64,000 bases of DNA from Opeltia flavorubescens. Lineage: Eukaryota; Ascomycota; Lecanoromycetes; Teloschistales; Teloschistaceae. The notes below the pieces were generated by a model. That model searched no databases, was not told the origin of the DNA, and saw only the letters and a program-made list of their open reading frames with translations. Positions 11,551-49,260 of the stretch are shown here, one piece after another. The position numbers and the translations under genes were made by a program. Where the stretch lies: positions 868,001 through 932,000 of the forward strand of contig KE546981.1 in the NCBI GenBank assembly GCA_000442125.1. Reading direction: 5' to 3'. The first letter of the stretch is position 1. Each line of letters opens with the position of its first letter.

Positions 11551-11909
11551 CCCTTTATCTAATTTCGGTAAAGAACTAGGCTTAGGCACCAGCTAAAAGC
11601 GTGCCCATGTTACTCTTACTAAAGCCTGGGCCGAAAGGTGCCCAGTAATGTAAGCACGGAGCTCTCAGAAACAAAGGAGTTGCAGCTAGCCAGATCCGGA
11701 ATTCAAGAAATATTTCTTTGTTGTCATATTCGGCACGTCTTTGTCTTGAAAGGCTTCCATCTCTGCTGAAGTCCTGACATATGGAAAGAGAATTTTTCAG
11801 TGGCCACTCGGCTATATAAGCTCCAGGTAGATCCAGCCACAGAAAATTCACATCATTTTCCCCGGTAAGGAAGAAGTAATGTATAGTACCGCACCGAATC
11901 CGCGCCAAA
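11551..11909 (+). promoter_or_regulatory. Conserved upstream region of MLRR-family copy A
   Basis: About 360 bp ahead of the ATG at 11910 matches the upstream regions of copy B (22660-23084) and copy C (24635-24977). Shared blocks include gagttgcagctagccagatc (A and B), ggcacgtctttgt in all three, and aaaggcttccatctct in A and C. Similarity begins abruptly at about 11551 and marks the left edge of the duplicated unit. Such upstream conservation shows that the copies arose by DNA duplication and not by retroposition, and it probably includes the promoter. Confidence 0.6.
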
Positions 11910-13280
11910 ATGCTTAGAAGAAGATCTAGGCGTTTAGCCCAATCCCAGCCGTCGTCTAGGACTAGTGATGAGCCTGCTCAAACCTTTTCAACGACTTTTC
12001 TTGAGAAAAGTGATAGTCTCTCGAAACGGTCTGTTAATTTTGCAGATCTCTCCGCTACGGGATTAAGAACATTCTGGCCACCGCTTAGCGTCTGCTCTCG
12101 CTCCCTCGCCTGGAGGCTCTGGTATATACTGCGATAGCCTATAACAGTATTACTAATCGTATAGATATATCTACAATATCTAGCCATCAAGTATACAGTC
12201 ACGGGTACGGCGTTCCTCTCCAGCGTTTGCAAGCACGAGGTACCGATGATACGTAACCGGGTGTGCAGCTCGTGGGACCAGTACCGCCTTCGGAAGCACC
12301 CTGGGGATTCGACGGCAAATCTTAACCGTCCATTAGAGAGTATCCTTAAAGGCAGTATCACGGATTAATTCTACAGACTTCCATACCGTCTCGCGGAATA
12401 TGATATTCAGGTGCGCTCGATCCAGTCAAGGTTTTCTAGGACGGAGTACGAATACGCGCCCAACGACGAGGAATACTTTGACGAAAGCTTTTCCAAACTC
12501 ATCAGCGAGTGCCATGTTGCAATGACGGCTGCGCAACGCTTCCAGTCGCATATCATTATAACAATTCATATCCAGATCTCCAACACGGAGATTATCATGC
12601 GGGCGCTTGAAGATAAAAAACATCTATCACCAGCAGACAGTGTGAATGACGGACTGCTTGTACGGAGCATAGCATGGCTCGATACACATTATCTGATCCA
12701 CCTCCCCGTAGGTATTGAGCCGTTCAAGGAAGGTTCGCGACGATTGGATCGCCTCAAAGATATCACCTTTATAGAAGACCATGTTCGTCAGATTGCGAGC
12801 CGATTAACCAAGGACATTAAACTTCTCCGTGATCTTCAGGACTCCTTTGAGAAAATTGGAGAATGGTCATTGGAACTTGCGAAGCGGATATCCCGTTACC
12901 AGAAATCTGATAGAGCACACGATGCCGTGAGGGACTCCAAGAATTTGTTTTGGATTGATGGAGACACTCAAGATCATAATCGCGAGGTCTACCAGATCTC
13001 TCATCGGCGCAGGTGGTTGGATACTCTGGGGCCTACGTTTGACAATACCGCTCTCTTCCTCACGAATGCCGCGTATCAGTTGAATGATGCCAGTCTTATA
13101 TGTCAAAATATCTTGGTTGAGCTTGATTATGAGGCAAAAGCTGCGAGATACCGAAGCAACGAGTCCGTGGGGATCGGACAGCAGTTCCAAGAGCTAATAG
13201 AGGGAATGGAAGATCTTGAGGAGCAGTTGAAAATACTCAAGGAGGAAGAGTTGAGATTCCGCGACCGAGCTTTTAAATGA
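11910..13280 (+). pseudogene. MLRR-family gene, copy A (intronless, three in-frame stops)
   Basis: The frame from the ATG at 11910 aligns from end to end with the intact copy B: MLRRRSRRLAQSQ start, a hydrophobic segment near residues 75-100, then the conserved EYFDESF, HYLIHLP and coiled-coil C-terminus. It is interrupted by TAG at 12135, TAG at 12162 and TAA at 12366, all of the kind RIP makes from CAG, TGG or CAA. From 12411 to 13280 it is open for 289 codons and barely damaged. It has no introns, including at the site where copy B has one. The C-terminal part could still be expressed from an internal start, but I judge it a pseudogene. Family function is unknown; a membrane-anchored coiled-coil protein fits. 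Confidence 0.75.
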
Positions 13281-13373
13281 ACGGATACGAAGGGTGCCTA
13301 ATTAAAGCACGTACGGTTGATAAGATTGCCATTCTCAACGCAGAATTCTAAAACTCATAAGAGAGTGCAGATT

Positions 13374-15440
13374 CATCGCGGCGAGTAAGCTGCGAATAGT
13401 TCGTAAAATGCCGTCATGTCTTCTATTAGTAACTGGTCGCCAGCTAGCTCCATATCGAAGAAATAATAGCCATCACTCTTAATTAAAAACGAGGTAGAAG
13501 CCTTATAATTATTTTTCTAAGGTTACTCTAATAATTTAATATTTCCTAAATCGAGTTTTAAAATCTATTTAATATAACCCGGATAATAATCCTTTAAAAA
13601 TATCTATATAAATCGTTTTACTATAAGGTTAATTATAGTAATAGATTTATCTAAAAAGCCCGCTTCTTTCTTTACTATTTTTAGAATCTATTAATATTAA
13701 TCTAGTCGTTACGTATTTATTTTAATATCTTTTTTTTCTATAAATAACGTTAATAATAATATTTTAAAAATATTAATAAGCTTAAAGCTAAATTTAAATA
13801 AAAAATATTAAAAATTATATTAATATTCAAGCTTTAAATTCTTAATAAAAACTATTATAAAATTTAATTAAGCCGATATAATTTACTAATAGATTTTTTT
13901 AAACTTAAAATTAAGGTAAGTAGCTAATATACGAACGATCCTTCTATATAAAGTAATTTCTACTATTTAGTAGACTAGATATAAATATTTATTAAAAAAA
14001 AGCTTTCTAATTATAACGTATTTAATATTTAAATAAAAGGGTAATTTTAAATATTATTCTTTTAATTTTATTTATAGAGGTTTTATTTTAAAAAAAGATT
14101 AAATAATTACTTTAATTAGATTTTAGGATACTTTTTTATTAATAGTAGCTAAATATAATAATCCTAGAATATTTAAAAGAATTTAAATTAGAAATATTAT
14201 ATAAATAAATAGTTACCGACTTTTTTTTATTTTTATATTTTCTTTTTCGTTGTTTTTATTAGTAAAGTTCTCCGGGAAATTTTATATAAAAAAAGGCTTA
14301 GTATATTAATCTAACTAAAATATATAAAAAGATTGTTTTTATACTAGGCTTACCTATTTATTTTATATATATAATATCTATATTAAACGTTTTCGCAGGT
14401 TTTATTTCTAGTTTAGAATATTTTAATTAAAGTAATTTTAATATAAATTTATATTTTAATTAATAGCTATTAACTATATAGTAAACGGCTAAGATATTTC
14501 GTTCGATCTTTATAATAAAAGTAGGTTTATTTTAATTATTAAAAGTTTAAAACGATTTATAATATATTATAAAGATTTTATTACTAATTTTACTATTAGA
14601 TTAATTTTTAAAATTAAAAGATATAATATCTTTAAATTATAATTTTAATAGTTTATACCTAATAAATATATAATAGCTAGTAGAACTAGAAAAAACTCGT
14701 AATAAATATAATCGTATTTTTCTAGAAAAACTTTTTTATAAAGGATTAGGAAATTTAAGTAAATAATATAGAAGTATAAATTAATTAAAATAAATTTATA
14801 AAGTATTATAATATCTTTAATTATATTAAAGTCGTTTATTTTATTTTTAAAAAGTTTAGTACTTTTATTAAAATATAATATAAATAGATTATTAATATTA
14901 ATACGTTAAAACTTTTTATTAAATAGTATTAGAGCCGAATTAATTAATATATTTATTATAATTAATATCGGTTTAATCCTATTATTTAAACTAATATAAA
15001 AGGTATAATAATAGCGTTATAAATTTAAAATATATTTTAATAAAGTTAATATTTTAAAGTCGGTATAATTTCTAACGATAATATTTTTATTATAGCGTAT
15101 TAAAAGCTTTTTATAAATAGTATCTTTTAAAAAACTATTAATACAATCTATATTAAATTAATAATACTATATTATAAAATTATACTAGTTACCTTTTAAA
15201 TATATTTTTATAGCTAATAGACTTCTATTTTTAAAAAAATAGGTACTTTATAAATATATAGTTCTAGTTATAGAATTAGTATAGTATATATTTAATAGTT
15301 CTAGTATTTAATATATAACAACTTTTCCTCCTTTTATAAATATTATAAAATCGATTTTTAAATACTTTTTACTTATTAAAAGTATTAATAAGGTCTCTTT
15401 TAATAATATTATTATTTATTATAAAATATACTATAAAAAA
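13374..15440 (-). pseudogene. RIP-destroyed copy of the DAL81/TamA-like Zn2Cys6 regulator (unit 1)
   Basis: Colinear with the better preserved regulator at 26927-28960. The C-terminal coding end is still readable near 13374-13480 (rc gives the same VYSPR-type end as unit 2, then stop). From about 13480 on, the sequence is above 75% A+T with nearly all CA and TG changed. The region of the zinc cluster falls near 15240-15350. Nothing is translatable over useful length. It is identifiable only by comparison with unit 2. Confidence 0.65.
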
Positions 15441-18400
15441 GACGGCTTTAAATAATAAAGGTTAAAAATATTAATTAAAAAGGAAATAATTTTTTTAAAG
15501 TTATAAATTATATAAAACTATCTAAAATTATATTATTATATTTTTATCTAGATATATCTAAAATAGTATATAATAAATATAATTAATTAAGTCTATCCGC
15601 TATTAAAAATATAGGTTATAAATAATATATATACTCGGGAAAAGTTAGATAATATCCTCGCTGGATATAATAAATTCGAAAAGCTAATATAATAAATTTT
15701 AATCTAATAAACGTAAACTTTATATATTATATAAACAATAAAATTATTATTTATAATAACGCGATTTTTTTATAAAAAACTATTATAATAGCTCTATATA
15801 TATAATTATAAGGTACTCGATTTCTCTATATCTTAATTTCGAAGCTATCCATTCCTTCTAGTATTTTTTATTCGAGGTCCCGACTAGATTAGACTAGTAA
15901 CCTCTTTAATTTTTATAAAAACTTTATTTTTAGTTTAATATATTTTATTATTATTAAAACTAACTTTATTTTTTTATAATAAAAGTACTACCTTTTTTAT
16001 TAAGGCTTTAATAATAAATAAAATATAAGTATAGATTATATAATAATTTAAAAGAATAATAAAAAATTTAAAAAATTAAATAAAAATATAAATCTTTAAA
16101 TATATTAGCGAATATTTATAATAATAATATTTTAATTAATTTATTTTTTAAATTCCTTTAATATTTAAATTATTATTAATTAACCTTATAAATCTAGATA
16201 TTAAAGGAAAAAAGCCTATATTAAAAATAATATATACTCTTTAATTTATACCGCTAGTATAATAATAAATATTATAATTTTTATAAAATTTATAAATATT
16301 AAGCTTTTTTTTTTAATTAAATAAAAGTTTAAAATTATAATACTAGCTAAAGGTTCTATTAAATAAAAGTAGCTAAAAAAAAATATAAATAAATTAGTAG
16401 TATTTTTAATAATATTTTATAAAGTATAAATAATATAAAAAATTAAAATAATTATTATTATTTAAAAAATATTAATATATTTAAAATATAAACTAGATAT
16501 ATCGTTATTAAAAGAGTAAATATTAATTATAATTTAATTATTAATAATCGCTAGTATAAAAGAGAATATAATAAAAAACTAGATAATTTAATTATTAAAG
16601 TCCGTAATAATAGTAGATATATATTATTAAAAATCGCTTTAAATATAACTATAAGCCGATATAATAAAGATTAATATAAGTACGCTAAATATTTTAATAA
16701 TTAGTAGTATAAAAAATTAATAATATTTTATAAAGCTATTTTTAAAAAAATAATTAAAATTAAGTATATTAATAGTTATTAAAAAGAAAAAGCTAATAAT
16801 AATATTTAAGCTAGTTAATATAGAATAGATTATATTTATATATATACTAGTTATTTTAATATAACTAGTTATAAATAATCTATCCCCTTTTATTATAATA
16901 ATATTTTAAAGAAATAAAGCTATAAAAATTAAAAATATAATAATTATTTTAATAAAAAATAGAATATAAAACTTTTAAATTAATATCTAAACTAATATAA
17001 TTTAAAAGATTTAGTAGATAAAAAAGTATAAAAGCTTTATTAAAATAATATTTATATTTAATAAAAAGTAATTAAAAAATTTTTTAAAACTTAATTAAAT
17101 AGTTTTAATATAATTCTATAAAAAGGCTAAAATTTATATATAAAAAATAGCTATTTATATTACTATAATAAAAATTTTAAAATAATTTATTAAATAAAAT
17201 TTATATATATTAAAGACCGAGCGGACGATAATAAAAAAAAAAATATTATATTAGACGTTTATTTTACTAATAAAAGTAACGACTACGCTATAAATAGTAA
17301 AGCCGAAAAAAATAATTAATATTATCTTTCGAGCGGTAAATCTAAACGATATAATAAATAAAACTATATTAGTAAGTAATAATATAAGTATATTAGATAT
17401 TTAATATATCTAATAGTTTTAAAGGTCTATTAATATATAAAATCTTTAATAGCCCCTCGCTTATTAGTATATTTTAACTTCGAGGCGAGAAAATATAAGG
17501 GGGTTATTTACCGGTCCACTCTAGGTTTTTATATATACCGGTATTAAATTTAAATCTATTATATATTATTTAAATAATAAACGAATATCTTTATTAGATA
17601 TATAATAAACCTTTATTTAATTATTATAGGCTATTAGTATAAATCCCAGCTTTAAATAGCACCCGTTAATAAAAATAAAAAATAAGCCGGGCCTTTAAGC
17701 GGTTTAATTTAAAAAAAAGTATAAATTATAAAATATTAATATAAAGAATTAATAAAATATAAAATACTAAATCTTATATAAAAAATATATAAGGTAGTTA
17801 TAAAAGGATATAATACTAATATATATATAATTTTAAGTATTTTATAAAAGTAAAATAAAAATTTAAATAGATAAAATATTAAATATTTTATTTTTAATTA
17901 TAAAAAATTTAGATATATTATTATAATAATATTTTTAAATTTATATATATATAAATATTATTAGTAATAGCTAGTAAATAATCGAGGTTTAAATAATTAA
18001 AAAGCCTTTATATAAACTAATATAATTTATATTAATTATTATTAATTATTAAGTACTATCTATTATATAAAAAATACTTTATATCCTATTTCTAATCTGG
18101 CCGTCGGCGGCGCCGTCGGGTTTATTTTATATATTTAGATTCGATTCTACGGTAAATATAAATTAAATTATAATAATATTAAAGATTTTAAAATAATATC
18201 CAGCGCTATAAAAAACGAATTTTTATATTTATAGTAAAACTCCTTTACTATTATAAATCTACTATTATTAAATAATCCATTAATATTTTCTCTAATTACT
18301 TTCTTATTATAATAGTATCCGTAAAGTTTATTTTACTACCTATATTTATTATATTAATTAAACTATATAATTTTTTTTTTCTTTATTAAAAACAGCTTTA

Positions 18401-19140
18401 TTTATAATTAATATATAACGCGATTTTTTATTAAAAAATAGCTTTAAATATATTTAAAATAGATGTTTTAAAATTATATAAAATTTAATAATATTAATAA
18501 AAAGGCTATTAAATATTTTTAAATAGGCTAGTTTATTTATTTTCTATATAAAAAAAAGCTATAAGCTAAATTTATTAAATTATCCTTTATTTAAATTAAT
18601 TTATTAAATTATAGCCTTTAGGAATATATAATATTCTAAAATTATTAGTAATATTATTAAAATAGGCCGTCTATTAATTTAAAGGAAATACGGCTATAAT
18701 TTTATAAATATTTTATAACTATTACTTAATAAAGTTATTATTAATAAATTAAAAAAAAAAATATTCTAAAATATAATTTTATTAGATAAATTTAAAGTAA
18801 AAATTATTATATATTTTATTATAAACGGAATTATAATAGAATATTATTTTATTATTATATTTTATAAAGTTTATAATAGGGGCTTTAATTATTATATATT
18901 CTTAAATTTATATTTTTTCTTTTATTTATTATTATTCGTGAATTCTAGTTAATCTAATATAAAAATAAAATTAAAAAAGCTATTATAAGCTATAATAGAG
19001 AGTTTAAGGATTATATACTATAAATATTATATTATTTATAAAACTTCTTCGGTTTTATAATAAACCTAAAATTTTTTTTAACCTATTTTACGCTTTATAT
19101 TAAATAACTAAAAGCTAGTATTAATTAAACGCTTTTATAA
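15441..19140. repeat. RIPed AT-rich block of unit 1
   Basis: Matches 28990-32660 of unit 2 and is more heavily mutated. It is almost devoid of CA dinucleotides while CG persists, the CpA-directed RIP pattern. No terminal repeats or protein motifs could be recognised, so I do not name a transposon. Small GC islands (about 18100-18120) serve as alignment landmarks with unit 2. Confidence 0.6.
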
Positions 19141-19434
19141 ATTTTTTTAAATTTTAATAAAAGTTTAAATATTAATAACCTTTAATAGACTTATTAATAA
19201 AAACTCTCTTTAGTAAATATTATAAAAAAGGTACTAAATCGAATTAAAAAGTATACTAAGTAGAATCTAGTAGTTTAAATATACCGAGAGTTTAAAAAAT
19301 TTATTCTAGACTAAACGAAATATCTATATATTAAATAGTTAAACCTCGAGGGCCTACCTTTATTATTTAGAGTTCCTTTTAGTATTAAAGACAGTATCGA
19401 TATTATAGGGCTGCTAATAACGATAGCGTGTCCG
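19141..19434 (+). pseudogene. Truncated, RIPed 5' stub of the allophanate-hydrolase-type amidase (unit 1)
   Basis: Matches the first ~100 codons of the amidase at 32679-34124: the FGVPFSVKDSIDIAGLP region is visible as (L/F)(R)VPFSIKDSIDII with many RIP substitutions. It stops abruptly at gcgtgtccg, where unrelated DNA begins. The fragment shows that the duplication breakpoint fell inside the amidase gene. Confidence 0.75.
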
Positions 19435-22423: not shown

Positions 22424-22659
22424 CTCGTGGAGGGACTCCGTCAATGTCTGCAGCAGAGCTTCAATCGCAGATAGACATTGGAAGGTCGTCCTGCGTGTAA
22501 GATAATTAGCAGATTTCGCAAGCTACATTCTGGGCCACAAAATCCAAAATTGAATCCTGCAATCCACACAGTTCAGCGGGTGTATTGAGGTCATCGTTTG
22601 TCGTCGGCATGAGGTTTTCTCACGTGCGGACTGAGTCATGACCCTCGCTTCGAGTGTAT

Positions 22660-23084
22660 AGGCGTTTGGATTTCAGCAATGAAATAGCCGGATACCGACG
22701 AAAACATGCCTATATCGCTCGTGCTAAACCCAGGGCCGAAAGGTTGCTCAGTAATACGAGCACGGAGCTCTCAAAAACAAAGGAGTTGCAGCTAGCCAGA
22801 TCCGGAGAACAAGTAATAAGGCAGATCCTCGTTTTGCCGCTTTTGGCACGTCTTTGTCCTGAGGGGCTTCCAACCTTTCTCCTTCTACACAGAGAACCAA
22901 CCATGTATCTAACTCTCTTTCTCGTCAAGGAAAATGATACAATTCTTCGAGAGGTGACTGAAAATTGCTAACCAAATCTCCGAGTCAGCGTTTTTCCATT
23001 CCTAGATAAATTCTGCGGTCAGCATTTCCTGCTCAAAGTGGGATCGCTTCTCCAGGCAAGGGAATATACCAACCACGCATCGAA
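22660..23084 (+). promoter_or_regulatory. Conserved upstream region of MLRR-family copy B
   Basis: Aligns to the upstream regions of copies A and C, including ggccgaaaggt, gagttgcagctagccagatc and ggcacgtctttgt. About 50 nt is inserted or diverged near 22905-23080 relative to the other two. Likely contains the promoter. Confidence 0.55.
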
Positions 23085-24507
23085 ATGCTTAGGAGATCCA
23101 AACGTATTGCTCAATCACAGCAGCAGTCCCGGCCTGCAGTACTTAAGACCAGTCACGGGCCTGCTCAAGTCTCTTCAACTACTGTCATCAAGAAAGGTGA
23201 TGACTTCCCAATACGACGGACGTTCTGGTATTCACTACGGTGGCCTACCATCGTGTGTCTGATGATCTGGTTGTGAGTAGTTTTGATCCCTAAAGGAAAA
23301 TGTCTCAGAAGTACTGGGACATGTACTTGCTCTTTCCGTTTACTCCAATAGGAGATGCTGACTACGATATTTGCTCAGATGTCTGCAGAGCCTGGCCATC
23401 GGGTATTCAGTCACTAGTCCGGTGTTTGTTCCCGGTGTCTGTGACTGGAAATTGCCGATCGTCAGGAATTGGCTCTGTAGCTCCTATGATCAGTTCTTGC
23501 GCGAGAGGCAGCAGAAAATGGAGCCAAAGAACCTTAATAAACCCTTAACTCGTCTTCTAAAGGGTGATAAGAGAGCAATGGTGTATGAGCTTCCGGATTA
23601 CCTCATTCGTTACGAAATGGTCATCCGGTCCTTACGATCTTCGCTTCCGGAGACCAGGTTCAACGCCTCTGATAAGGAATATTTCGAGGAGAGGTTTACT
23701 GACTTCATTGACCAATGTCAACCCACGATGGATAGCTCGCAGAATTTCCATGCTCAAGTAACCAGGACGATTGGCAGTCACGAAATTGAAACGCTAGTGA
23801 TTGTTAACAGGCTCAACGACCATATTTTGTTCCCCCAGGCGAAGCCGACTGAACCTGACTCCCTGGCAAAGATCATAGCATGGTTTAGGAACCATAATCT
23901 GATTTGGCTCCCCGCCAGTGTTGAAATTCCCCAGGAGTACTCGTACCAGCAATTCAACACCTCGGCTTTCCAGGCATTGGAACAATATTTAGACTCGACA
24001 GCCCTCCAACTGATCATTGGTATAAATTTAGTCCTCGAGTTGCAAAGAAAATTAAATGGGCTCTGGTCGACATTAGAGGAGATAGGCTCAAAGCTTACAA
24101 AGTGTAAGGCCGAAGCTGGATACCGGAACTACATTGAAGACGAGAAGTGGCTGCCGTGGTTGCGCAGGATGTTTGCGACCCCTACCTATAATAGTCGTAA
24201 GGATCTACAGCTCGTGCAGCCTGTTAAGTGGACAGACAACATAAAACCATTCTTCAAAGAAGCCTTAGGTTTTACTACCGCGGCCGTGGACTGTCTCCAG
24301 GAGGCATACAAGAACTCCCAAGAGCTGAAGCAGCAGCTAAAGATTGAGGAGAGGGCTGAAAAGTATGGGCCTTCCACTGAATGGATGAAGCTGCAAGCTC
24401 AGAACTTGAATGAGGGATTGGCAGAACTTGGAGCTCAGTTCAGAGCTATTAGGTTAGAGTACCTGCATTTCAGCCGTCTGTCCAGGAAGCATGCCTTTGG
24501 CCTGTAG
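23085..24507 (+). CDS. MLRR-family membrane/coiled-coil protein, copy B (intact)
   Basis: Exons 23085-23272 and 23379-24507 join in phase 2 across a 106-nt intron, giving 438 residues. The N-terminus is basic (MLRRSKRIAQSQQQSR). A hydrophobic segment spans the splice site at about residues 55-78 (RWPTIVCLMIW then LCLQSLAIGY), followed by a second weaker one (VTSPVFVPGV). The rest is soluble and largely helical, with a coiled-coil C-terminus (QAQNLNEGLAELGAQFRAIR). The layout is a membrane-anchored helical protein. No family that I know matches. It is the only copy of three with no in-frame stops. It sits between the two units of the large duplication, in the same orientation. Confidence 0.7.
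23273..23378 (+). repeat. Introner-like element in copy B
   Basis: 106-nt spliceosomal intron, donor gtgagt, branch gctgac, acceptor gctcag. Its 5' end (gtgagtagttttgatc) and its last 45-50 nt (ctctttccgtttactccaat, then agatgctgac..atttgctcag) match the four introns of copy C. Copies A and C are continuous in coding sequence at this exact site. Confidence 0.75.
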
Positions 24508-24634
24508 CCCAAGAGTTCACTATAAAGAGAGTACCTTAGGTATAAAATTGTGATTCTCACAAAGCACCGTCGGCGCGTGAAGTTCGTTGTATGTTCCAGA
24601 AATGGCGAGAAGAATATAGTAAATATCAATACCT

Positions 24635-24977
24635 CTTTCCGATTCCGTCAAAAAATGAGCTGGGTACCTGCTGGAGACGTGCCTGTATTGCTCGTGCTAA
24701 AGCTGTCGCCGAGAGAGGTACAAGTCTTCGCAACAACAATCGGCTAACCAGATCCGGCGAACAAGGTAATACCTTAATTCTCATTTACCACTTTGGGCAC
24801 GTCTTTGTTCTGAAAGGCTTCCATCTCTCCTGAAGTCCTGACGTTTGGAAAGAAAAACTTCCAGTCACCACTCAAGAATATAGACTCCAGGCCGGCCCAC
24901 CCACAAAGAAATTCGGGTCGTTTTTTACCCCGGCAAGGTGGAAGCCGAGTATAGTAACACACCAAACTCGCACCAAG
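24635..24977 (+). promoter_or_regulatory. Conserved upstream region of MLRR-family copy C
   Basis: Matches the region ahead of copy A most closely in its last 200 bp (ggcacgtctttgt, aaaggcttccatctct, cctgaagtcctgac). It marks the left edge of duplication unit 2. Confidence 0.6.
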
Positions 24978-25575
24978 ATGCTTAGAAGAAGATCCAGGCG
25001 TTTAGCCTAATCCCAGCGGTCGTCCCAACCTGCAGTACTTGAGACTAGTCACGAGCCTGCTCAAGCCTCTTTAATAACGTTCATCGAGAAAAAAGATGAC
25101 CTCCTAAAACGATCTGCTAATCTTTTTAATCTTGTAAATCTCTCTTTAATAGGATTAAGAACGTTTTAGCGACTATTTAGTAACTACTCTCGCTCCCTCG
25201 CTTAAAAGTTCTGGTATCTACTATAAAGGCCTGCAATTATATTATTAATTATATAGACGTATCTATAAAATCTAGTTATTTAGTATATAGTTACGAGTAT
25301 AGTATTCCTCTCCAGCTACTATAAGCACGAAGCATCGATTATACGTAATTAGGTGTGCAGCTTTTAGGACCAGCGCTAGGTAATTCGCTTTCCGGAGCTT
25401 TCCGGGTTAACGGCGAATCTTAACTATCTATTCGAGAATATTATTAAAAGTAGTAATACGGAATTATCGTTTAGACTTCTATATTATCTAGTCGAGTATA
25501 AAGGTTAAATTCGTTTATTTCGATTAAAGCTTCCGGATATAGATTACGAACTTAACGACGAGGTAGAATTTAAAG

Positions 25576-25692
25576 GTGAGTACTTTTTCGAGTAATAGTA
25601 CCTTAGAGTAAATTAGCTTATAAGTTTTAAGATTTATACTCTACTTTTTCCGTTTACTTCGCTGGGAAATACTAACTCCGAAATTTACTTAG
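25576..25692 (+). repeat. Introner-like element 1 of copy C
   Basis: 117 nt, donor gtgagtac, branch actaac, acceptor acttag. The 3' segment tttttccgtttacttcgctg then gaaatactaac is close to copy B's intron. Interrupts codons that are contiguous in copies A (EYFD/ESF) and B. Confidence 0.75.
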
Positions 25693-25828
25693 AATTATTT
25701 TCTCGAATTATCGACTAATACCTACCGGCGATTAATACTTCCTAATATTTTTAAAATTATATTATTATAATTATTAACGTTTAAATCTCTAGTACGAAAA
25801 CTATTATATAAATAATTAAGAAAAAAAA

Positions 25829-25943
25829 ATAAGTATTTTTCTAAATAAAATTCTCTAACGTAATTTATCTTATAAATTCTAGGATATATACTTATTTTTT
25901 CTATTTACTCTAATAGAAAATACTAACTATAAAATTTACTTAA
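25829..25943 (+). repeat. Introner-like element 2 of copy C
   Basis: 115 nt; splice ends now read ataagt and acttaa, consistent with RIP of gtaagt and acttag. Shares the ttttctatttactctaatag segment and aaaatactaac branch with the other copies. Absent at this place in A and B. Confidence 0.7.
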
Positions 25944-26171
25944 AGGCCTATTACTACTATTTAACCTAAATTTAAATAATAGACTACTTTTAAAGATTAT
26001 AGTATAATTTAATATATATTATCTAATCTACCTTCCCGTATTTATTAAACTATTCTAGAAAAATTTATAATAATTCTCTCGCTTTAAAGCTATCGAGTTT
26101 ATAAAAAATTATATTAAATTAATAATAAGCTAATTAATAATAGATTTTAAAAATATTATAAAATTTTAAGA

Positions 26172-26285
26172 GTAAGTAATTTTCTAAGCGATAATATTTT
26201 TAAACGACGTTTTATAAGTATTAAAATATATATTTATTCTTTCTATTTATTTTATAAAGAATTACTAACTTTAAAATTTATTTAA
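26172..26285 (+). repeat. Introner-like element 3 of copy C
   Basis: 114 nt; donor gtaagtaattttct, branch attactaac, RIPed acceptor atttatttaa. The ctttctatttattttataaa segment aligns with the family consensus. Absent at this place in A and B. Confidence 0.7.
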
Positions 26286-26472
26286 ATCTTTTAGTCTTAT
26301 TATTAAAAACTTATCGGTAGTTATAATATAGATAACTAGTATAAGGAAATCGAATGCAGTATATAATATAATAAAGTAATTTTATCTTTTATTCGAAGTT
26401 TGTAAAGAGATTTAAAGTTAAAATTATAAAAGCTACTAGATCTTTTAATAATATTAATAGTCGGATATTATA

Positions 26473-26549
26473 ATAAGTAGTTTTCTTAAATAATAGTTCC
26501 TTTTTTTTATTTATTTTAATAGGATTTACTAACTCTAAAATTTATTTAA
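26473..26549 (+). repeat. Introner-like element 4 of copy C (internally shortened)
   Basis: 77 nt; donor (RIPed) ataagtagttttcttaaata, branch tttactaac, acceptor atttatttaa. It keeps both ends of the family but lacks about 35 nt of the middle. Absent at this place in A and B. Confidence 0.65.
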
Positions 26550-26926
26550 AGACCTATTTTTACCGAAACTATAAATTTCCTTATAAATATTCACGCTAAG
26601 TTAGATATAGCCTATTTAATATATTAGACTCTAGAAGAAAAGCTTAATTATAGAGAAGCTATTATAAAATATAAAAATAGATATAACGAATCCGTATAAA
26701 TTAAACGGTAGGCTCGAAAGCTAATAAAGGGTATAAAAGATTTTAAAGAGCAGTTGAACAGCTTTAAAAAGGAAAAATCAAGATTTCGGACCGAATTTTT
26801 GCACCAAAGCTTTTAGATATAGGGATACGAAGGATAACTTACAGGCTAAGAAATTATAGTATATACAGTCGATTAGATTACCACTTTTAGAATAAAGTTT
26901 CAGGATATATAAGACGATTTGCAAGC

Positions 26927-28960
26927 TTATCGCGGCGAATAAACCGTAAATAGCTCGTGAAATATCGTTATATCTTCTATTAATAATTGATCGCTAGCTG
27001 GCTCTATATCGAAGAAAAAGCGGCCGTCGGGATCCTATAGGCCATCATTCTCAATTGATAGCGAGGCTTCTGTCTCGCTATAATCCCTCCAAGTATGCTT
27101 TATAGGTTTAACGTTTCCTAGACGGAGCTCTAAAATCTGTTTAATACAATCCGGGTAAAGGTCCTTTAAGGATACTAGTATAGATCGTTTTACTACGAGG
27201 TTAACTATAGTAATAGATTTATCCAAAAAGCCCGCCTCCTTTCTTACTATTTTTAAAGTCTATTAATATTGATCCAGCCGTTTCGCGCTTTCTATTATAT
27301 CTTCTTCTTCGATAGATAACGCCGATAGTAACATCTTAAAGATCCTAATAAGCCTAAAGCTAAATTTAGACGAAAAGTACCAGAAGCTATACCAATATTC
27401 TGGTTTGAGGCTCTTGACGAAGGCTATCGTAGAACTCGATCGAGCTAATGCGGCTTGCTGGCAGATTTTCTTAAGCTTAAGATTAGGACAGGTGGCTAGG
27501 GTACGCGTGATGCTCCTATGCAGGGTAATCTCTACTATCTAGTAGACTAGATACAGGTAGCCGCTTGAGGAAAGCTTCCTGACCGTAACGTACTCGATAC
27601 TTAAGCTGGAGGGAAGATTTAAATACCATTCCTTCAGCCTTATCTGTAGAGGTTTCGCCTTGAAGAGAGATTGAGTGGTTACTTTAGCTGGATTTTGGGA
27701 TACTTCCTTATTAGCAGCAGCTGAGTATAAAGATCCTAGGATATCCGAAAGGATCTGAGTCAGAGACACCATGTACGTGAATAGTTGCCGACCTTTCTCG
27801 ACTTCTGTACTCCCTTCCTCGTCGTTCTCATCGGTAGAGTTCTCCGGGAAATCTTATGCGAAAAGTGGCTTGACACGCCAGTCTGATTGGAAGATGTGAG
27901 ATGGTCTACCCTGCACCAGGCTTGCCCATTTGTCTTGCATGTACAATGCCCAGGCTAGACGCTTTCGCAGGCCCCGCTCCCAGCCTGGAATGTCCCAGTT
28001 GGAGCAGTCGCGATGCAAGCCTATATCCTGGCTGATAGCTACCAACTGCGCAGTAAGCGGCCAAGACGTCTCACTCGATCTCTATAGTAAGAGCAAGCCC
28101 GCCTCAACGGTCGAAAGCTTAGGACGATTCATAGCATATTGCAATGACTTCATCGCTAGCCTCACCAACGGATCGACTTTTGGGGTTGGTAGGTGCGATA
28201 TCTTTAGATTGTAGCCCCAGTAGTTTATACCTAACAAGTATATAGCGGCTAGCAGAGCTGGAGAGAACTCGCGATATATACGCTCGTACTTTTCTAGGAA
28301 GACTTTCTTGTGAAGGATTGGGAAACTCGGGTGAACAATGCGGAAGTACAGGTTGACCAGGATAATTCTATAAGGCGCTACAAGATCCTCGATTGCATCG
28401 AGGTCGTCTATCTCGTCTTCGAAGAGCTCAATGCCCTTATTAGGATACAACACGAACAAGTCGTTGGTACTGACGCGTCGAAATCTCCCACCAGGCGGCA
28501 TTGGAGCCGAGTCGACCGAAACACCTATCGTGGTCAGTGTCGGTTCAATCTTACCACTTGAGCCAACATGAAAGGTATAATAACAGCGTTATAGACCCAA
28601 GGTGCGTTTTAGTAGAGTTGGTACCTCGAGGTCGGCATAGTCTCCAGCTACGATATCTTTATCGTGTCGTTTAGAGAGCCTCCTACGAGTAGTATCTCTA
28701 GGGAAGCTGCCAACACGATTTGTGTTAGATTGACGATACTATATTATAGGACTGTACTGGTCACCTCTCAGGTACATCCTCGTAGTTAACAGACTTCCGC
28801 TTGTGGGGCGGGAGTTGCTCTACAAATGTACAGTCCTAGCTATAAAATTGGCATAGTACACATTTGGCAGCTCCAGCGTTAAGCACACAGCGACTTTTCC
28901 TCCTTCTATATATATCGCACGGTCGAACTTTAGCCACTCTCTACTCATCGAAAGTATTGA
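26927..28960 (-). pseudogene. DAL81/TamA-like Zn2Cys6 transcription factor, RIP-inactivated
   Basis: Reading the minus strand, a zinc cluster lies at about 28940-28820: VRPCDIYRRRKSRC, then AKCVLCQFYS, a stop, and DCTFVE. One cluster Cys has become Tyr (CDIY for CDIC) and the CAG/CGA before DCTF is now TAG. A fungal_trans domain follows: VNLYFRIVHPSFPILHKKVF, AIYLLGINYWGYN, RPKLSTVEAGLLLL and GLHRDCSNWDIPGWERGLRK then RLAWALYMQDKWASLVQGRP. The C-terminal end DPDGRFFFDIEP..LFTVYSPR stops at 26927. This sequence style is that of the DAL81/TamA group, which activates nitrogen-catabolic genes such as urea, GABA and allantoin pathways (known for yeast and Aspergillus). Several further stops make it non-functional. 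The N-terminal start is not resolved. Confidence 0.7.
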
Positions 28961-28989
28961 TAAAGTCTTGTCCGAGAATATCGTTGTCT

Positions 28990-31900
28990 ATCGTAAGATA
29001 TATAGTGAGCAGGACGGCTCCAAATTATGGATCTCACGAATGCCAGTCGGAGAGGAAGCAGTCCTCTCAAGGCTGCGAATTGTATAAATCTACATGGAGC
29101 CACAACGTTAAGCCTCCGTCCAGACATACCCAAGGTAGTACATAATGGATATAGTTAATCATATCCATCCGCCGTTGAGAACATAGGTAATGGGTAGTGT
29201 GTACGCTCGGGCAATATCCTCGCTGGATACAGTAAGTCCGAAAAGCTAGCACGATAAGTTCTTATCCAATGAACGTAAGCTTTATGTATTATATAAGCGA
29301 TAAAATCATTTCTTTACAAAAAACTACTATAACAGCTCTATATACACAATCACGAGGTACCCGATCTTCCCCACATCTCAATTTCGAAGCTATCCACCGT
29401 CACTCTCCAGTATTCTTCGTTCGAGGTCCCGACTAGACTGGACTAGTAACCTCTCTGGTCTCTACAAGAACTTTATCCTTGGTTTTATATATTTCACTAC
29501 TATTAAAACTAACCTTATCTTTCTACGGTAGAAGTACTACCTTTTCTACTAGGGCTTTAATAATAGGTAAAACGTAAGTATAAATCACGTAATAATTTAA
29601 AAGAGTAATAAAAAATCTAAAAAATTAAATAAAGGTATAAATCTTTAAATATATTAGTAAATACTTATAATAATAAAACTTTAATAAATTTACTTTCTAA
29701 GCTCCTCTAATATTTAGGTTATTATTAATTAACCTCGCAAATCTAGGTATTAAAGGAAAAAAGCCTATATTAAAAGCAATATATACTCTTTAATTTACAC
29801 CGTAAATATAGTAATAAATATTATAGTCCTTATAAAATTTATAAATATTAAACTTCTTCTTCTTAATTAAATAAAAATCTAAGACTATAATACCGGCTAA
29901 AGACCCTATTAAATAAAAATAGCTGGAAAGGAATATAAGTAAACTAGTAGTATTTTTAATAATATTTTATAAAGTATAAATAATATAAAAAATTAAGATA
30001 ATTATTATCGCCCGAAAAATATTAATATATTTAGGATATAAACTAGATATATTATTGTTAAAAAGGTAAATACTAATAGTAATCTAATTACCGATAGTCG
30101 CTAGTATAAAGGAGAACGCGGTAAAGAATTAAGTAGCCCGGCTATTAAAGTCCGCGATAATAGTAGATATATACTACTAGAAATCGCCCTAAATATAACT
30201 ATAAGCTAATATAATAAAGATTAGTATAAATATACCGAGCGTCCTAATAATTAATAATACGAAAAACTAATAATACCCTACAAGGCTATTTTTAAAAAAA
30301 CGATTAAAGTCGGGTATATTAATAGCTATTAAAAAGAAAAAACTAATAATAACGTTTAAGCTAGTAAACGTAGAATAGGTCGTATTTATATACGTGCTGG
30401 TTATCTTAGTATAGCTAGTTATAAATAGTCTACCTCCTTTTATTATAATAACGCCCTAAAGGAATAAGGTTGTAAAAGTTAAAAGTACGACAACTACTTT
30501 AATAAGAAATAGAATACGGAGCTTCTAAATTAGTATCTAAGCTAATATAGTCTAAAAGATCTAGTAGATAAAGAAGTATAGAAGTCCTGCCGAGGTAATA
30601 CCCGTATCTAGTAAAAGGTGATTAGGAAACCTTTTAAAGTTTAGCTAGATAGCTTTAATACAATTTTACAAGAAGGCTAAGGCCTATATATAGAGGATGG
30701 CTGTCTATATCGCTGCGACAAAAGCTCTAAGGCAGATTACCGGGTAAGACCTATATATGCCAAAGACCGAGCGGACGATAACAGGGAAGGAGATGCTGTA
30801 TTAGGCGCCCATTTTACCGGTAAGGGTAACGACTACGCTGCAAATGGCAAAGCCGAAAAAGACAATTGGTATTGTCTCTCGAGCGGTAAACCCGAGCGAT
30901 ATAACAGACGAGACTGTACTAGCAAGTGGCGGTGCGAGCATATCAGAGGTCCAATATACCCAATAATTCTAGACTTCTATTAGGTTATAGCATCCTCAAT
31001 ATCTGGGGCGAGAAAGAATAAAAGGGCCACCTATCAGTCCACTCCAGGTTCTTATATAAACCGGTACTGGGTCCAGATCTATCATATATCGTCTGAGTAA
31101 CAGCCGAATATCTTTACTAGGTACATGACAAACCTTTATTTGACTATCGTGGACTGTTTGCATAAATCCCAGCCTCAAACGGCACCCGCCAATAGAGGTA
31201 AGGGGCGAGCCGGGCCCTCAAGCGGTTTGAAGCGAGAAACGATATAGAATACAGAACACTAATATAAACAGTTAATAAAATATAAGATACTAATTCTTAT
31301 ATAAGAAGTATATAAAGTAGTTATAAGAGGACGTAATACCGATATATATATAATCGCAGGCATCTCGTAAAAGTAAGATAAGAATTTAAATAGATAGAGT
31401 ATTAGGTATTCTACCTTTAGCTATAAAGAGTTTAGATATATTATTATAGCGGTATTTTTAAGCTTATATATATATAAATATTATTAGTAGTAGCTAGTAA
31501 GTATTCGAGGTCTAAATAGTTAAAAAGCTTCCGTATAGACTAATATAACTTACACTAATTATTATTGATTATTAAGTACTATCTACTATATAAGAAATAT
31601 TTTGCATCCTACTTCTAATCTGGCCGTCGGCTGCGCCGTCGGGCCTATCTCGTATACTCAGTTTCGACCCCGCGGTAGATACAGGTTGTTTAGTATCCAA
31701 TTATAATAGCGTTAAATACTTTAGGATAATATCCAGCGCTATAAAAAACGAATTTTTATATCCGTAGCAAGACTTTTTTACTACTATAACTCTACTATTC
31801 TCTATTAAATAATCTATTGAGATTTTCTCCGATTAATTTCTTATTATAATAGCATCCGTAAAGTCTATTCTACCACCTATACTTATTATACTAGCTAAAC

Positions 31901-32660
31901 TATATAACTTCTCTTTCCTTCTATTAAAAACGGCCTTACTCGTAATTAATATATAGCGCGATTTTCTACTAGAAGATAGCTTTAGATATATTTAAGATAG
32001 ACGCTTTAAAGTTATATAGAATTTAATAATACTAATAAAGAGGCTATTAAATACTTTTAAATAGGCTAGTTTATCTATTTTCTATATTTAAAAGGGCTAT
32101 AAGCTAGATTTATTAAATTACTTTTTATCTAAATTAACTCGTTAAGCTATAACCTCTAGAAATATATAGTATTCCAAAGTTATTAGCGACGTCGCTAAAA
32201 TAAGCCGTTTATTAATTCGAGGGGAATACGGTTACGATTTTATAAACACCTTATAATTATTATTTAACGAGGTTATTATTAATAAACTAGAAAAAGGGGT
32301 ATTCTAGAATATAACTTTATTAAATAGACTTAAGGTAAAAGCTATTATATACTTTATTATAAGCGGAGTTACAATAAAATACTACTTTATTATTATATTT
32401 TACGAGGCTAGTAATAGGGGTTTTAAATACTATACGTCCTTAAACTAATATTTTCCTTTATATTTACTATATTTCGCGAACCGCAGCTAATCTAGTATAA
32501 AGGCGGGATTAAAGAGGCTATTATAGGCTATAATAGAGAGTTTAAGAATTATACGCTATAGATATTATACTATTCGCAGGGCCTTTTCGATTTTATAGCT
32601 AACCTAGAACCTCTTCTAGCCTGCTTCGCGCCCCACATTAAGTATCTAAGAGCCAGCTTA
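28990..32660. repeat. RIPed AT-rich block of unit 2
   Basis: Homologous to 15441-19140 but less mutated. A less damaged part at 30690-30960 (plus strand) reads for about 90 residues with only RIP-type stops, including the segments AVYIAATKALRQITG and KTIGIVSRAVNPSDITDE. I do not recognise this protein. It may be a third gene of the locus or part of a repeat inserted before the duplication. The ggccgtcggctgcgccgtcg landmark is at about 31620. No terminal repeats identified. Confidence 0.5.
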
Positions 32661-32678
32661 GATTATACGCCTCCGTAG

Positions 32679-34124
32679 ACCCCTCCAAGCTTCGATAGAA
32701 ATCTAGCTATCGAGAGCCTCCAGCAAGCTTACCGACAAGGACTCTCGCTAGTAACTGTTATGGAGGAGGTGCTGAATCGAATTGAGAAGCACGCTAAGCT
32801 GGATCCAGCGGTCTAGATACACCGAGAGTCTAGGGAGTCTGTTCTAGACTAAGCGAAACATCTACACATCAAATGGCTAAACGTTGAGGGCCTGCCTCCA
32901 CTGTTTGGAGTCCCCTTTAGTGTGAAAGACAGCATCGACATCGCAGGGCTGCCAACAACGACAGCGTGTCCGCCGCTGGCACATGTACCTTCCAAGTCCG
33001 CACCAGCTTATGAGGTCTTGCTATCGCAAGGAGCTATATTCGTTGGCAAGACCAACCTTGATCAGCTGGCTACAGGATTGACAGGATGTCGCTCACCATA
33101 CGGTATTCCGCGGAGTGTCTTTAACACCGATTACATCTCTGGAGGATCATCGAGTGGAAGCTGCGTCAGCGTTGGTGCCAATCTTGTGTCTTTCTCACTG
33201 GCAACGGACACGGCTGGATCGGGACGAGTACCGTCAGGTTTCAATGGAGTAGTAGGCTACAAACCAACCAGAGGGCGAATCTCTGCTCGAGGCGTCACAC
33301 CTGCTTGCCTATCACTCGACTGCATTGCCATCATCGCAAGTCAAGTTGACGATGCTCGGATCGTGTGGGACGTAGCTACTGAGTTCGATGAGGAAGATCG
33401 ATATGCCAAAAGCTGCGCACCAATCACGAGGCACATCAACTCCACCGGACCACAGGCCGCAGTCTTTAAGTTTGGCATTCCCCCTCCGGATGCATTGCAG
33501 GTGTGCAGCCCTATCTACCGCCGCATGTTCAACGACATTGTACAAAAGCTGCAACAGCTTGGCGGCCGCCTACAACCGATCGATTGGACGCCGTTCCAAA
33601 AGGCTGGAAAGCTGCTCTATGAAGGCAGTTTCGTCTGTGAACGCCTGGCCAGTCTACCCGACGGTTGGCTAGAACAGAACCGTAACCAGCTCCATCCTGC
33701 GATTGAATCCACATTCTCAGCTGTCGTGGCCAGGAAAAGCACCGCTGTTGACGCCTATCGTGACCTCCAAGCAAAAGCCCTTTACACTCGTCAGGCAGAA
33801 CGAGTCTTCGAGTATAGCGCCGCCGGTGTCGACGTGGTCGTTGTGCCAACGGCTCCGACGCACTGGACCGTCAAGGAGGTGCTAGCGGACCCTATATTTA
33901 CGAATAGCAAACTCGGAGAATTCACACATTGTGGCAACGTGTTGGATCTATGTGCGGTGGCCGTTCCAGCTGGCACATATCCCGTAGAAGACATTCAGGG
34001 AGTTGCTGATGGTGCAGGCGGAGATTTGCCATTCAGTGTTACGTTCCTGGGGGGTTCTATGCTGGATGCTGAGACCTTGGAGATTGCCCACAGGTTCGAT
34101 CGGGCAATGAAAGATGTTGCATGA
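32679..34124 (+). pseudogene. Allophanate-hydrolase-type amidase, N-terminal part broken by RIP
   Basis: Amidase-signature protein close to allophanate hydrolase (the step that turns allophanate from urea into ammonia and CO2). Seen: PPLFGVPFSVKDSIDIAGLP with catalytic Lys, KTNLDQLATGLTG, YISGGSSSGSCVSVG with the cis-Ser, ATDTAGSGRVPSGFNGVVGY with the nucleophile Ser, and GVTPACLSLDC. Reading starts near 32679 (PPSFDRNLAIESLQQAYRQG). TAG at 32676, TAG at 32814 and TAA at 32850 lie in the same frame, all before the duplication edge at 32972. After that the frame is open to 34124. No good ATG exists between 32850 and the catalytic Lys, so a truncated product would lack the N-terminal helix and probably that Lys. 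The separate C-terminal domain of bacterial AtzF is absent. Confidence 0.8.
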
Positions 34125-39861: not shown

Positions 39862-42800
39862 CCTACGCGGAGGGGCGCCGTTAGGCGCCCCACTCGGCCT
39901 TTCGGCTATGTCCGGTTAAGTTACATATGGTTTTTAGGCCTTTACCCCGCCATTAAAGTACCTATTCTATAAAAGCCCGCTCCTAATATCTTACGTCTAC
40001 TAAAAGTTTAAAAGTTTAAAGGCTTAAAAGTTTAAAAATTTAAAAGTTTTAAAACCCGTCTACCTTTATATCTATATTATATTCTATATAGTTTATAAAA
40101 TAGCTTTATTAGTAATAAGCCCTTTAAAAGTTATATTATACCTATTCGGTTAGCTAATAAATAGGTTTCTATCTTATATATTAAAGTTTTTTTATAATTA
40201 TTAACTATTTAATACTTTTATTAGTTTTTAAATAGTAATTTTTATAGTTAAATATTAAATAAATATTTAATAATAACTAAATTAAATATTTATATTTTTA
40301 ATATTACCTTAAATTATTATAAAATAAAAAAATATTTATTAAAAAATATAGTTTTAGCTTTAAAATAATTATTAACGAGCTTTTATTTTTATAAATTTAT
40401 AAATAATTTTTTAGATATTATCTAGTTATACATTTAATTTCTAAATATTTATTTTTTTATAATTAATTAAAACTTAAAATTATATTTTAAATAATTTAAT
40501 TAATTATTTTTCTATAATAATATTTAATAATTAAATATATTAAAGTTAATATTATTTATAATTAACCGCTTGTTTATTATATTTTTTATACTTTAAATAT
40601 TAAGTAATATATTTAAAAGGTAAACGCTTTAAAAATACTAATTTAAATTAAAATTATAAATAGGTTATATAAACTTTTTATAATTATAAAACCTATTATA
40701 TATTTTTAAAATTTTTATCTCGCCCGCCTATCTAAATAAATTTAATATTCGTTAATTTAGGTTTCGTATTTTTTTATATTAGTAGTAGTAATAGTAAAAA
40801 TAAAAAAAAAATTTTTTTTATATTATCTATTATTATATTTAATTTTTATAATTTTAAAAATCTTTTATATATATTAATAATAACTTTTTAATAAAAATTT
40901 AAAAGTTTATAAATTTTTTAAATAGTTTTAATTTTTATTAAATTTTTATTTTTTATAAAATAGAATTCGATTAAAAAGTAAATTAATTAATAAAAGCGAT
41001 TTAAATATTAAATTTTATTTAAATTTATTATATTTTATTTTTAAAAAGGTCTTATTTCTTTTATTTATTTATATATTTTAGGTATTATAATCCGATAAAA
41101 TTCTATTTTTTTAATATTAATTTTAAATTATATATTATTATAATATTATAAAAAAGGCTTTAATAAAATTATTATTACTATTTTTTTATTTTTAAAATAG
41201 ATTATTACTTTTATTAAAAGCGGGTTTATTTATTCTTTTAATATTTTCTATAATTTTTCACGCGAGATATATATCCGTTTTTTATAAAAAATTATAATTT
41301 TTTTAAAATAGTTAGTTTATAATATCTATATAAATTATTATAACGTTTTATTTAATAATATTTAATAAAATTATATATTTTATTTTAAATATATTTTTTA
41401 AATTTATTTAAATTAGTATACCGAATAATAATTATATTTAATAAATTTAAATTATATATTCTAGCTTTAATAATTATAAATAGAAAAAAAAAAAAAAAAA
41501 AAGGCTATATATTTATTAAATAGGTAGCGAGGCCGGTAATTAAAAAGCGCTCTAGTTATTATTCTACTTCGTTTTTTATTTAAAAATAAAAGGCTAATAT
41601 TTTAAATAATATAATTATCGTTTATATTTTTATTATTAAATTTAAAATTTTTATTTTTACTTTTTAATATCGGCTGCTAGATTATCTATATAGATATTTA
41701 ATATTTTTACTTTATTTTTATTAGATTCCTTATTTTTTAATAGTTATTTTATAAAATATTTTTAAAATTTATATTTTAATTATAAATTTAGTAGCTTTTT
41801 TAATCTATTTTAAATTTTTAAAAATTTTATTAATATTAATAAATTAGCGATTTTATATTACTTTTTTTTTTATTAAAAAAAGAATAAAATATTAAAATAT
41901 AATTTTAAATTTATTAGCTTTTTTTATAAATATATTTTAATAAAACCTTCGCTTTATATATATAAAATAAATTTTTTAATATAATTTTTTTTATTTATAA
42001 TTATATAATAATAAAATTTATCGCTTTTTATATATTTTTATAAAACTTTAGTATAAAATAATATAATATTTTAATATATTTTTTAAATTTTTATTCTATA
42101 ATATATACTTTTTAAATAACTTTCTATTAATTATTAATAAGCTTCCTAATATATTATATAGCTAAAATAAATAAATAAATTAGGTTTTTTATATTTAATT
42201 ATTACTTTATTATTTATTTTACTAATTTATTTATAATTTTATTACTAAATATATTTTTATAAATAATTATCTAATAAATTTATATTAATATTTTTAATTA
42301 TTTTAGTATTTTTAAATATTAAATAATATTTTTAATAATATATTATTTTAATTAGTCTTTCGGCTTTATAACCGTCTATATAGCTATTTAATTATCTATT
42401 TATATTATTAATATAAAGAGTTTTTCGTCTATTATTAGTTTATAAACTATATTTATATTTTTTAATTTTTTTAAATATATTATAAATTTTTTATCCGGCT
42501 CTAGTTTTTTTATCTATTTAATTTTTATCTATAATATATATACTACCACTTTAACTATATTATTTATACCGCTATTATCGATATAAATATAAAAAATATT
42601 TAAATAATTTTATTTTTCTTTATTATATTTTTTTATTATCCGTTTTTTTTTATAGTAATATAAACCTTTAAAAGCTTCTATTAAAATAATACTATAAATA
42701 GGATTTATATTTTTATTATTTTTTATATTTATTTTTTTACTTTATTATCTAGTTATTTTAATAAGTTTTTTAATTTATTAATTTTCTTTTTAAATTTTTA

Positions 42801-47968: not shown

Positions 47969-47981
47969 CCTCAAGCACAGT
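47969..47981 (+). repeat. LINE target-site duplication, right copy
   Basis: cctcaagcacagt, identical to 39825-39837. Marks the 5' end of the minus-strand element. Confidence 0.8.
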
Positions 47982-49260
47982 AGATCCAACAATGAGTAGA
48001 AACGGCCTAGGCAATCTGAAAAAATGTGTCCACATAGTGAAGAAGCTTGAGGTGGGACAGTGTCCTATATCAGCGTCTTTTTATCGCCGTCAGCTTAGCA
48101 ATGTGGACGTTGTTTCAGCTATCGCATATGGAGTAGCTTGGGTACGTTTCTTTAGCCATTTGTATACAATGATGAGATGCGGGTGGGATTCAAATTATCG
48201 TCATTAAGCGTACCTGTGAACTCTGTACGAAAAATCTCGTATTGGCATCATGTACTTTGATAGCCTGCACATGCAAGGCCCAGTAGTCAACAGTCGCGCA
48301 AGTCGATGTAACGATGCTTGGCCTGGGAAGATCCATCTTCTCTACAAAAGACATAGAGACGTCTGTCAGATATCGTTCGACAAGCCACGCATGAGATTCC
48401 ATATGTTATTCTAGTGTTGATAAGGAACACCGAGTCAATCTATTGAAATGACCAATGGATCCAGCGATGCAGGTCACAGCATCGACTCCCTTCTTGGTGA
48501 AGGACGTGGAGACGGACCCACCTTTTGTCGTCGGTGAGAGATCAACCAGAGTAGTCTACTGGACAGATTGTTCTACGGGTTGATCGGGGTAGTTGATATA
48601 CTGCGACTCATTACCGTCCTTGGAGATAAACTCCGACCTTACACCTCCAGGCGGTATCTCTGGGTGCAACTCCTCGTCAATTGGGGGTGGTAGCAGGGTA
48701 TGGCGGCATTCACCATTTCGGTTTAAGTACGCACCGCCTGCACCGATCGACCAGCTTCTGCAATGCGATCTCAATTTTTTCTATCACCACAGCCCATTCG
48801 CTACATGCTCTCTGTGCATCGGGCTTTTTTAAAAGTGTGTTCCTTTTTCTATGGGACGCCCACGACAAGAAGATCGTGGATGTCCAAGGTAGTTTTACCC
48901 GTCAACGCTACATCTAATACCATTAAATGTTTCCAGATCGAATGATGAAACAAGCAATCAGCAGGCGGGAATACAGCAGCTTTGCTTACCAATGACGCAT
49001 AGAATGTCATTAAAAGTCTCCAGACGAACTGATGAAACAGGTAACCAGCACGCAGGAGGGTTCCTGTTGTGTAAAGTCTTCATACAACGGACTGGTGAAG
49101 CCACATACCATCTTCTTCGAAGAAGCATTGCTAGAGGATCGTCATCGTGATAAGACGCTACCAAGCTGCAGCCAACATCACCGTTATAGGAACAACCTTG
49201 ACAGTCTAGCCATCCGCAAACCTCGAGGATTTCAAGCTGAGACGTCCCGAGAGTACTGCT
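47982..49260. other. Gene-poor region with a short direct repeat
   Basis: Only short frames without domains. Two related blocks (about 48924-48968 and 49009-49055, both with cattaaa.gt.tccaga, ga.tgatgaaaca and cagca.gc.gg) form an ~86-bp spaced direct repeat. A minus-strand segment near 48735-48774 has CRRC and a Lys-rich context but no gene model could be built. Confidence 0.4.

Follow-up and report, generated by a model that had tools for sequence, protein, structure and literature searches.

The window analysed here, a stretch of 64,000 nucleotides of DNA (C17:868001-932000, within an assembly of 34.4 Mb and 23 contigs), holds three paralogous genes that pose a question about how introns arise: how did one of them, copy C, come to carry four introns and another, copy B, a fifth, all resembling each other, when copy A has none at the four C sites? 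A sequence-only reading had answered it with a recent multiplication of introner-like elements (ILEs), taking C and A as a striking before/after pair and pointing to the ILEs of Dothideomycetes. Our analysis upholds an introner-like family, but neither the before/after pair nor the Dothideomycete setting. We assign a probability of roughly 80% to the explanation, built on sequence comparisons, that an intron family has multiplied, that copy C is a mosaic and that RIP, the fungus's defence by mutation of repeats, has caused the decay of introns within it. The features concerned are collected in Table 1.

Table 1. Paralogues, introns and duplicated flank at the locus. Positions refer to the window unless prefixed with C17.
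Feature	Position	Strand	Remarks
Copy A (approximate span)	11910..13320	+	Paralogue; all four C/D sites lack an insert
Copy B, exon 1	23085..23272	+	ATG at 23085
Element in copy B	23273..23378	+	106 nt; GTGAGT..CAG; GT..AG intact; GC 0.42
Copy B, exon 2	23379..24507	+	Downstream of element
Tract of copy C resembling D (ends approximate)	25300..26780	+	Contains elements C1-C4; strongly mutated by RIP
Element C1 in copy C	25576..25692	+	Partner of D1; GTGAGT..TAG; both splice sites intact; GC 0.31; profile E 4.4e-16
Element C2 in copy C	25829..25943	+	Partner of D2; ATAAGT..TAA; GC 0.16; profile E 1.5e-5
Element C3 in copy C	26172..26285	+	Partner of D3 (subfamily 2); GTAAGT..TAA; GC 0.14
Element C4 in copy C	26473..26549	+	Partner of short form D4; ATAAGT..TAA; donor and acceptor mutated; GC 0.14
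Flank common to C and A	26719..32972; second copy 13192-19434	.	Transversion difference 0.023
Copy D, fourth paralogue	C17:~862,020-859,850	-	~6 kb left of window

On re-reading the sequence, we found the coordinates of all five introns, one in copy B and four in copy C, to be as claimed. Their likeness also exceeds chance: the real introns had a mean pairwise score of 30.95, against 16.0 (sd 1.06, maximum 19.5) in 500 shuffles of the interior that left 8 nt at the start and 26 nt at the end in place. The likeness among the four C introns is, however, inflated by RIP; in a tree the four C introns cluster together, whereas their unmutated partners in copy D (D1-D4) do not. Only C1 has kept both splice sites, the other three having lost letters through G-to-A changes, including both the donor (GT to AT) and the acceptor (AG to AA) of C2 and the acceptor (AG to AA) of C3. 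C2 is nevertheless matched by a D2 query at E 1.4e-11 and C3 by a donor-side pattern; neither C3 nor C4 has a profile match at E<=1e-3, and both were assigned by alignment. Taking the element out of copy B leaves an open reading frame of 438 amino acids, with the intron in phase 2. This element matches the family profile at E 2.5e-26, although B is itself one of the ten source sequences of that profile; as the sole blastn query, it matched seven other places in the genome. The copy B protein matched no Pfam family at the cut-off, and only itself in a search of 5.8 billion proteins.

Searches of the whole assembly indicate that the five window introns are almost certainly members of a single family of spliceosomal introns, or ILEs, dispersed in the genome. 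A consensus of ten copies gave 35 matches in the 34.4-Mb assembly, corresponding to 34 elements (one was matched in two pieces), and the reversed consensus, used as a control, gave 0. A subfamily-2 query gave 19 matches and two internal patterns 22 and 28, with 0 for the reversed patterns; all counts from these genome searches are lower bounds. A profile made from ten copies, B and D1-D4 among them, recovered 42 elements at E<=1e-3 in 187 kb of sequence, ten of which are its own sources. Adding C3, C4, the consensus match at C1:1415703 and C12:785647, which matched the donor pattern only, brings the total to at least 46 elements on 13 of the 23 contigs, or about 42 separate insertions, since the four in copy C are copies common with D. 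Five of the 42 profile matches are degenerate (C5:1089740, C13:110264, C19:46176, C17:851997 and C12:1318238). A candidate at C3:763671 had one pattern match and no profile match and was dropped. One diverged member used as a query matched only itself, and other diverged queries added little.

Elements are typically about 116 nt long, with shorter forms of 76-97 nt, and across the family pairwise identity averages 72%, the best pair (97%; C1:420879 and C8:355669) lying in two different genes. A donor, an RCTRAC-like element and an AG are present in alignments of 10 and of 31 copies, from which degenerate or RIPped copies depart. Three family elements lie within 7.4 kb of one contig (C11:484710, 487622 and 492092), and another two, one of them degenerate, are 178 bases apart at C12:1318060 and 1318238, flanked on either outer side by long open frames. 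The degenerate element at C17:851997 (profile E 4e-5), 16 kb left of the window, adjoins an ORF with a weak, below-cut-off AA9 match.

The check that had been proposed, a profile and a genome search, thus yielded dozens of dispersed copies inside unrelated genes, with reading frames continuing across them. Most of the elements occupy coding sequence in sense orientation: in 38 of the 42, the ORF that spans the junction after removal of the element is longer in sense than in antisense (medians 193 and 73.5 codons), and 38 of the 42 carry an in-frame stop. Intron phases are spread as 15, 16 and 11 across these elements, some being uncertain because ends were set automatically, and those of C17:766994 and C8:435949 being unreliable. 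A Pfam search (E<=0.01) with 40 pieces of exon, flanking 27 elements in 26 loci, gave a family on at least one side in 21 of the loci; in 15 of these the match reached the curated cut-off. For thirteen elements the search covered both sides, and in four of these a single domain (Peptidase_M19, dihydroorotate dehydrogenase, carnosine N-methyltransferase or the nucleoside transporter C-terminus) runs continuously over the junction, losing no more than the split codon. At C1:420879, MFS_1 was found on both sides with coordinates that are not continuous, and the remaining 8 of the 13 were one-sided, had different domains or were empty. A predicted protein, P0002, reads as though the element at C17:766994 had been removed. 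Candidate empty sites are offered by paralogues A and B, which are without the four C/D introns, and by domain continuity in four genes.

The history of the four introns in copy C involves a fourth paralogue. Copy D is free of RIP mutations. At each of the sites known from C it has an intron, 116, 119, 114 and 76 nt in length for D1-D4, and their phases of 1, 2, 2 and 0 are consistent; a model of the first exon of D meets a stop at codon 198, and the start of D is accordingly approximate. The statement that no intron position is shared therefore holds for B against C but fails for the C positions, since D has introns at every one of them. The alignment shows that copy A indeed lacks an insert at each of the C sites. 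Read from its first ATG without modelling introns, A meets stops at codons 75, 84 and 152.

Comparison of transversions, which are blind to RIP, places the coding sequence of C close to D (0.058) and as far from A (0.134) as D is (0.136), while the 6.3-kb flank of C differs from that of A by only 0.023. The grouping of C with D and of A with B is favoured by 49 sites, against 17 and 13 for the other groupings, and by 1000 of 1000 bootstraps. Because the flank of C is A-like and its coding sequence D-like, flank and coding sequence of the A/C locus have different histories. The informative sites change sides accordingly: C equals A at 24 of 28 between 24,970 and 25,300, and equals D at 118 of 145 from 25,300 to 26,780. 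This 5' breakpoint has a Fisher P of 1.4e-11, but it was picked among eight tried (P 2.4e-6 to 1.4e-11), in a region where D aligns poorly and a D-specific stretch was left out; the 3' end of the tract is only approximate because sites past 26,700 are mixed. The A/C locus is thus very probably a mosaic. Since C is D-like in its coding sequence and has its four intron sites in common with D, A is not simply C before insertion, and on the coding distances, the site pattern and the sharing of all sites with D we ruled out the before/after pair that had been proposed.

It is possible that gene conversion or ectopic recombination put a four-intron, D-like tract into the middle of an A-like copy, giving C. 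Transfer from D to C is the simplest reading and the one we lean towards, with odds lowered by the poor alignment of the 5' part of D; in the reverse history, the middle of A would have been replaced by another paralogue. The N-terminal parts of A and B differ by transversions at 0.10, against 0.28 in the rest, and the paralogue family may recombine its ends.

Around these genes, the 5' regions of B (22640-23060) and A (11610-11900) look, by reading, far more alike than the coding sequences. The two copies of the 6.3-kb duplicated block (13192-19434 and 26719-32972) are RIP-mutated unequally, and pieces at 27539-28588 match a fungal transcription factor domain.

Between the introns of D and those of C, 93 of 110 substitutions are C>T or G>A, which shows the decay of C by RIP; the mutation would have followed the tract transfer and broken the splice sites of introns 2-4. 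RIP generally needs longer repeats. The 31 dispersed copies have a GC content of 43%, and their rates of C>T (0.137) and G>A (0.159) are only somewhat higher than those of T>C (0.097) and A>G (0.110); at TpG, however, G>A is more frequent (48 of 215) than in other contexts (64 of 490), and some dispersed copies may have undergone light RIP.

How the elements reach new sites is a separate question, for which we considered two routes. New copies could come about through RNA: once excised, an intron would reverse-splice into another transcript, which would then be copied back into DNA. Such a route, which has been proposed for ascomycete introners (PMC9860276), fits the family because the elements are in sense orientation, lie in coding sequence and show no target-site duplication, and we regard it as an even bet. 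In the less probable alternative, the elements would be small non-autonomous DNA transposons that carry splice sites by chance. The same survey reads most introner families outside the ascomycetes as DNA elements, and the ends of the element can pair as RNA, as that alternative would allow; the ascomycete families, however, appear there as an outlier without such DNA marks (PMC9860276). Our own data also weigh against a DNA-borne element. Among the 44 listed elements, with weak and RIPped ones left out, none of the remaining 35 has a target-site duplication: the longest run across the ends is 4 nt, in one element, and 3-nt matches occur in 5 of the 35 against 2.2 expected, a slight excess. Terminal inverted repeats at the DNA level were no better than in shuffles, 354 of 1000 being at least as good. 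The 35 elements show a mild preference for G at -1 (16) and +1 (15) and no other target motif.

At least five end bases are pairable in the RNA of 18 of 31 copies, against 15% in controls that retain the donor (6 nt) and acceptor (3 nt) (P 6e-8) and 38% in those that retain nine bases on the acceptor side (P 0.017), with both P values overstated because the copies share ancestry. RNAalifold gave no common fold on the 31 copies and, on ten, only a donor-to-branch-point pairing without covariation. Folding z scores were -1.35 and -2.23 for two consensus sequences and -0.79 on average for the copies, and structure mapped from the consensus shows weak covariation, with pair counts slightly above column shuffles. 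It is tempting to combine these processes into a spread at two levels, with single insertions by the RNA route followed by recombinational transfer of a block of four between paralogues, and with RIP largely sparing the short elements and destroying them inside longer duplicates; as a whole, we hold this scheme to be tentative and rather doubtful.

The four introns were probably gained rather than lost, as their sequences suggest. On this view, the D/C lineage would have taken up four insertions once it had separated from A, and B would have taken up one. An unlikely alternative is that the four already stood in the common ancestor of A, C and D, possibly of B too, and that A and B later lost them, for example by recombination with cDNA. 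By parsimony, two bulk losses would do at least as well as four gains, and A is without all four together. Yet the D introns look younger than the A-D split, since their transversions against the consensus (0.026-0.039, compared with 0.075 for B and a family median of 0.0525) fall below the exon value of 0.136, or about 0.068 per lineage, although part of each intron is constrained. Moreover, B retains an element of its own and the family is dispersed in unrelated genes, neither of which favours loss.

Gain by insertion leaves the concentration of four elements in one gene, an arrangement for which random placement gives about 6e-7 genome-wide on assumed gene numbers. This could suggest that the D introns were duplicated from each other inside the gene. 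D1-D4, however, are only 70-80% identical to each other, whereas D3 shares 90% identity with C8:355669 and D4 87-89% with C1:1392666; these closer outside relatives rule out intragenic duplication as the main source, and we consider such local copying very improbable, the rejection covering D3 and D4 rather than D1 and D2 and tree support being modest. Separate insertions into one favoured gene are thus likelier than copying within it. Finally, an artefact of composition, whereby AT-rich, RIP-mutated introns would look alike by chance, may be dismissed: C2-C4 have 14-16% GC and the four C introns do cluster artificially, but B and D1-D4, which carry no RIP mutations, align along their length, and the empty reversed controls, the genome-wide matches and a shuffle test exceeded by far exclude it.

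ILEs of Dothideomycetes were reportedly described by van der Burgt in 2012. In a further paper, they are treated in Fulvia fulva, Dothistroma and Zymoseptoria, and our family resembles them as a set of repeated spliceosomal introns in unrelated genes, with subfamilies of different age (PMC4457414). The same paper mentions four genes with two ILEs each and one gene seemingly attractive to ILEs, so that several elements per gene are common to both systems (PMC4457414). Compared by description only, our family differs in its host, which is near Gyalolechia, in its tens rather than hundreds of copies (a lower bound) and in its mean identity of 72% with a best pair of 97%, known ILEs being usually near-identical.

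The sister stwintrons of Hypoxylaceae and Xylariaceae, and the canonical introns related to them, also reach new sites without flanking duplication (PMC8469720, PMC12403724), and the possible pairing of RNA ends in our elements, with a 3' arm between branch point and acceptor, recalls the near-terminal stem of stwintrons in Xylariales (PMC12403724). Unlike stwintrons, our elements are single rather than nested, and their end pairing is weakly supported. A [D1,2] stwintron, in which an inner intron splits the outer donor and the whole begins with GGU, was rejected, as removing a single GT..AG intron restores continuous domains and G stands at -1 in only 16 of 35 elements; by reading, no second donor was seen after an inner AG in the family consensus. 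With introners of algae and other eukaryotes, as presented in PMC9860276, the family has in common that repeats create introns in genes. It is unlike introners of the DNA type, and was not classed with the DNA-transposon-like ones, in having no target-site duplication and no convincing inverted repeat in its DNA. By title and abstract, a literature search found no paper on ILEs in lichen fungi, although the species lists of PMC9860276 may include this family; ILEs as a kind are known, and the family is apparently undescribed.

The origin of new spliceosomal introns is an old question, and intron families in the act of multiplying give one of the rare chances to observe it. The present family, from a lichen fungus, comprises subfamilies that differ in age and four apparent hits on a single gene, and its insertions can be tested. 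The C locus separates insertion one by one from possible bulk transfer, which a count would wrongly score as four gains in parallel. To judge from its mutated splice sites, it also appears to show RIP making introns unspliceable and lending four diverged introns a false likeness.

The setting is that of a lichen fungus rather than a Dothideomycete. An element-bearing MFS transporter at C17:767 kb, the one protein on which this placement rests, has one match at 100% identity and shares 91-92% of its residues with proteins from Gyalolechia sp. 2 and G. ehrenbergii, its next relatives being further Gyalolechia (G. fulgens is represented) and other named lichen fungi among the best 120 of 3721 matches. 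Gyalolechia belongs to the Lecanoromycetes (Teloschistaceae) and is lichen-forming. In one paper, Gyalolechia flavorubescens is listed among fungi with moderate RIP (PMC7882544), and we found RIP-type indices in window blocks of 9-18% GC. The window has a single N at 56542, and more very AT-rich blocks with 9-18% GC and RIP-type indices lie at 40001-48000 and 59001-62000.
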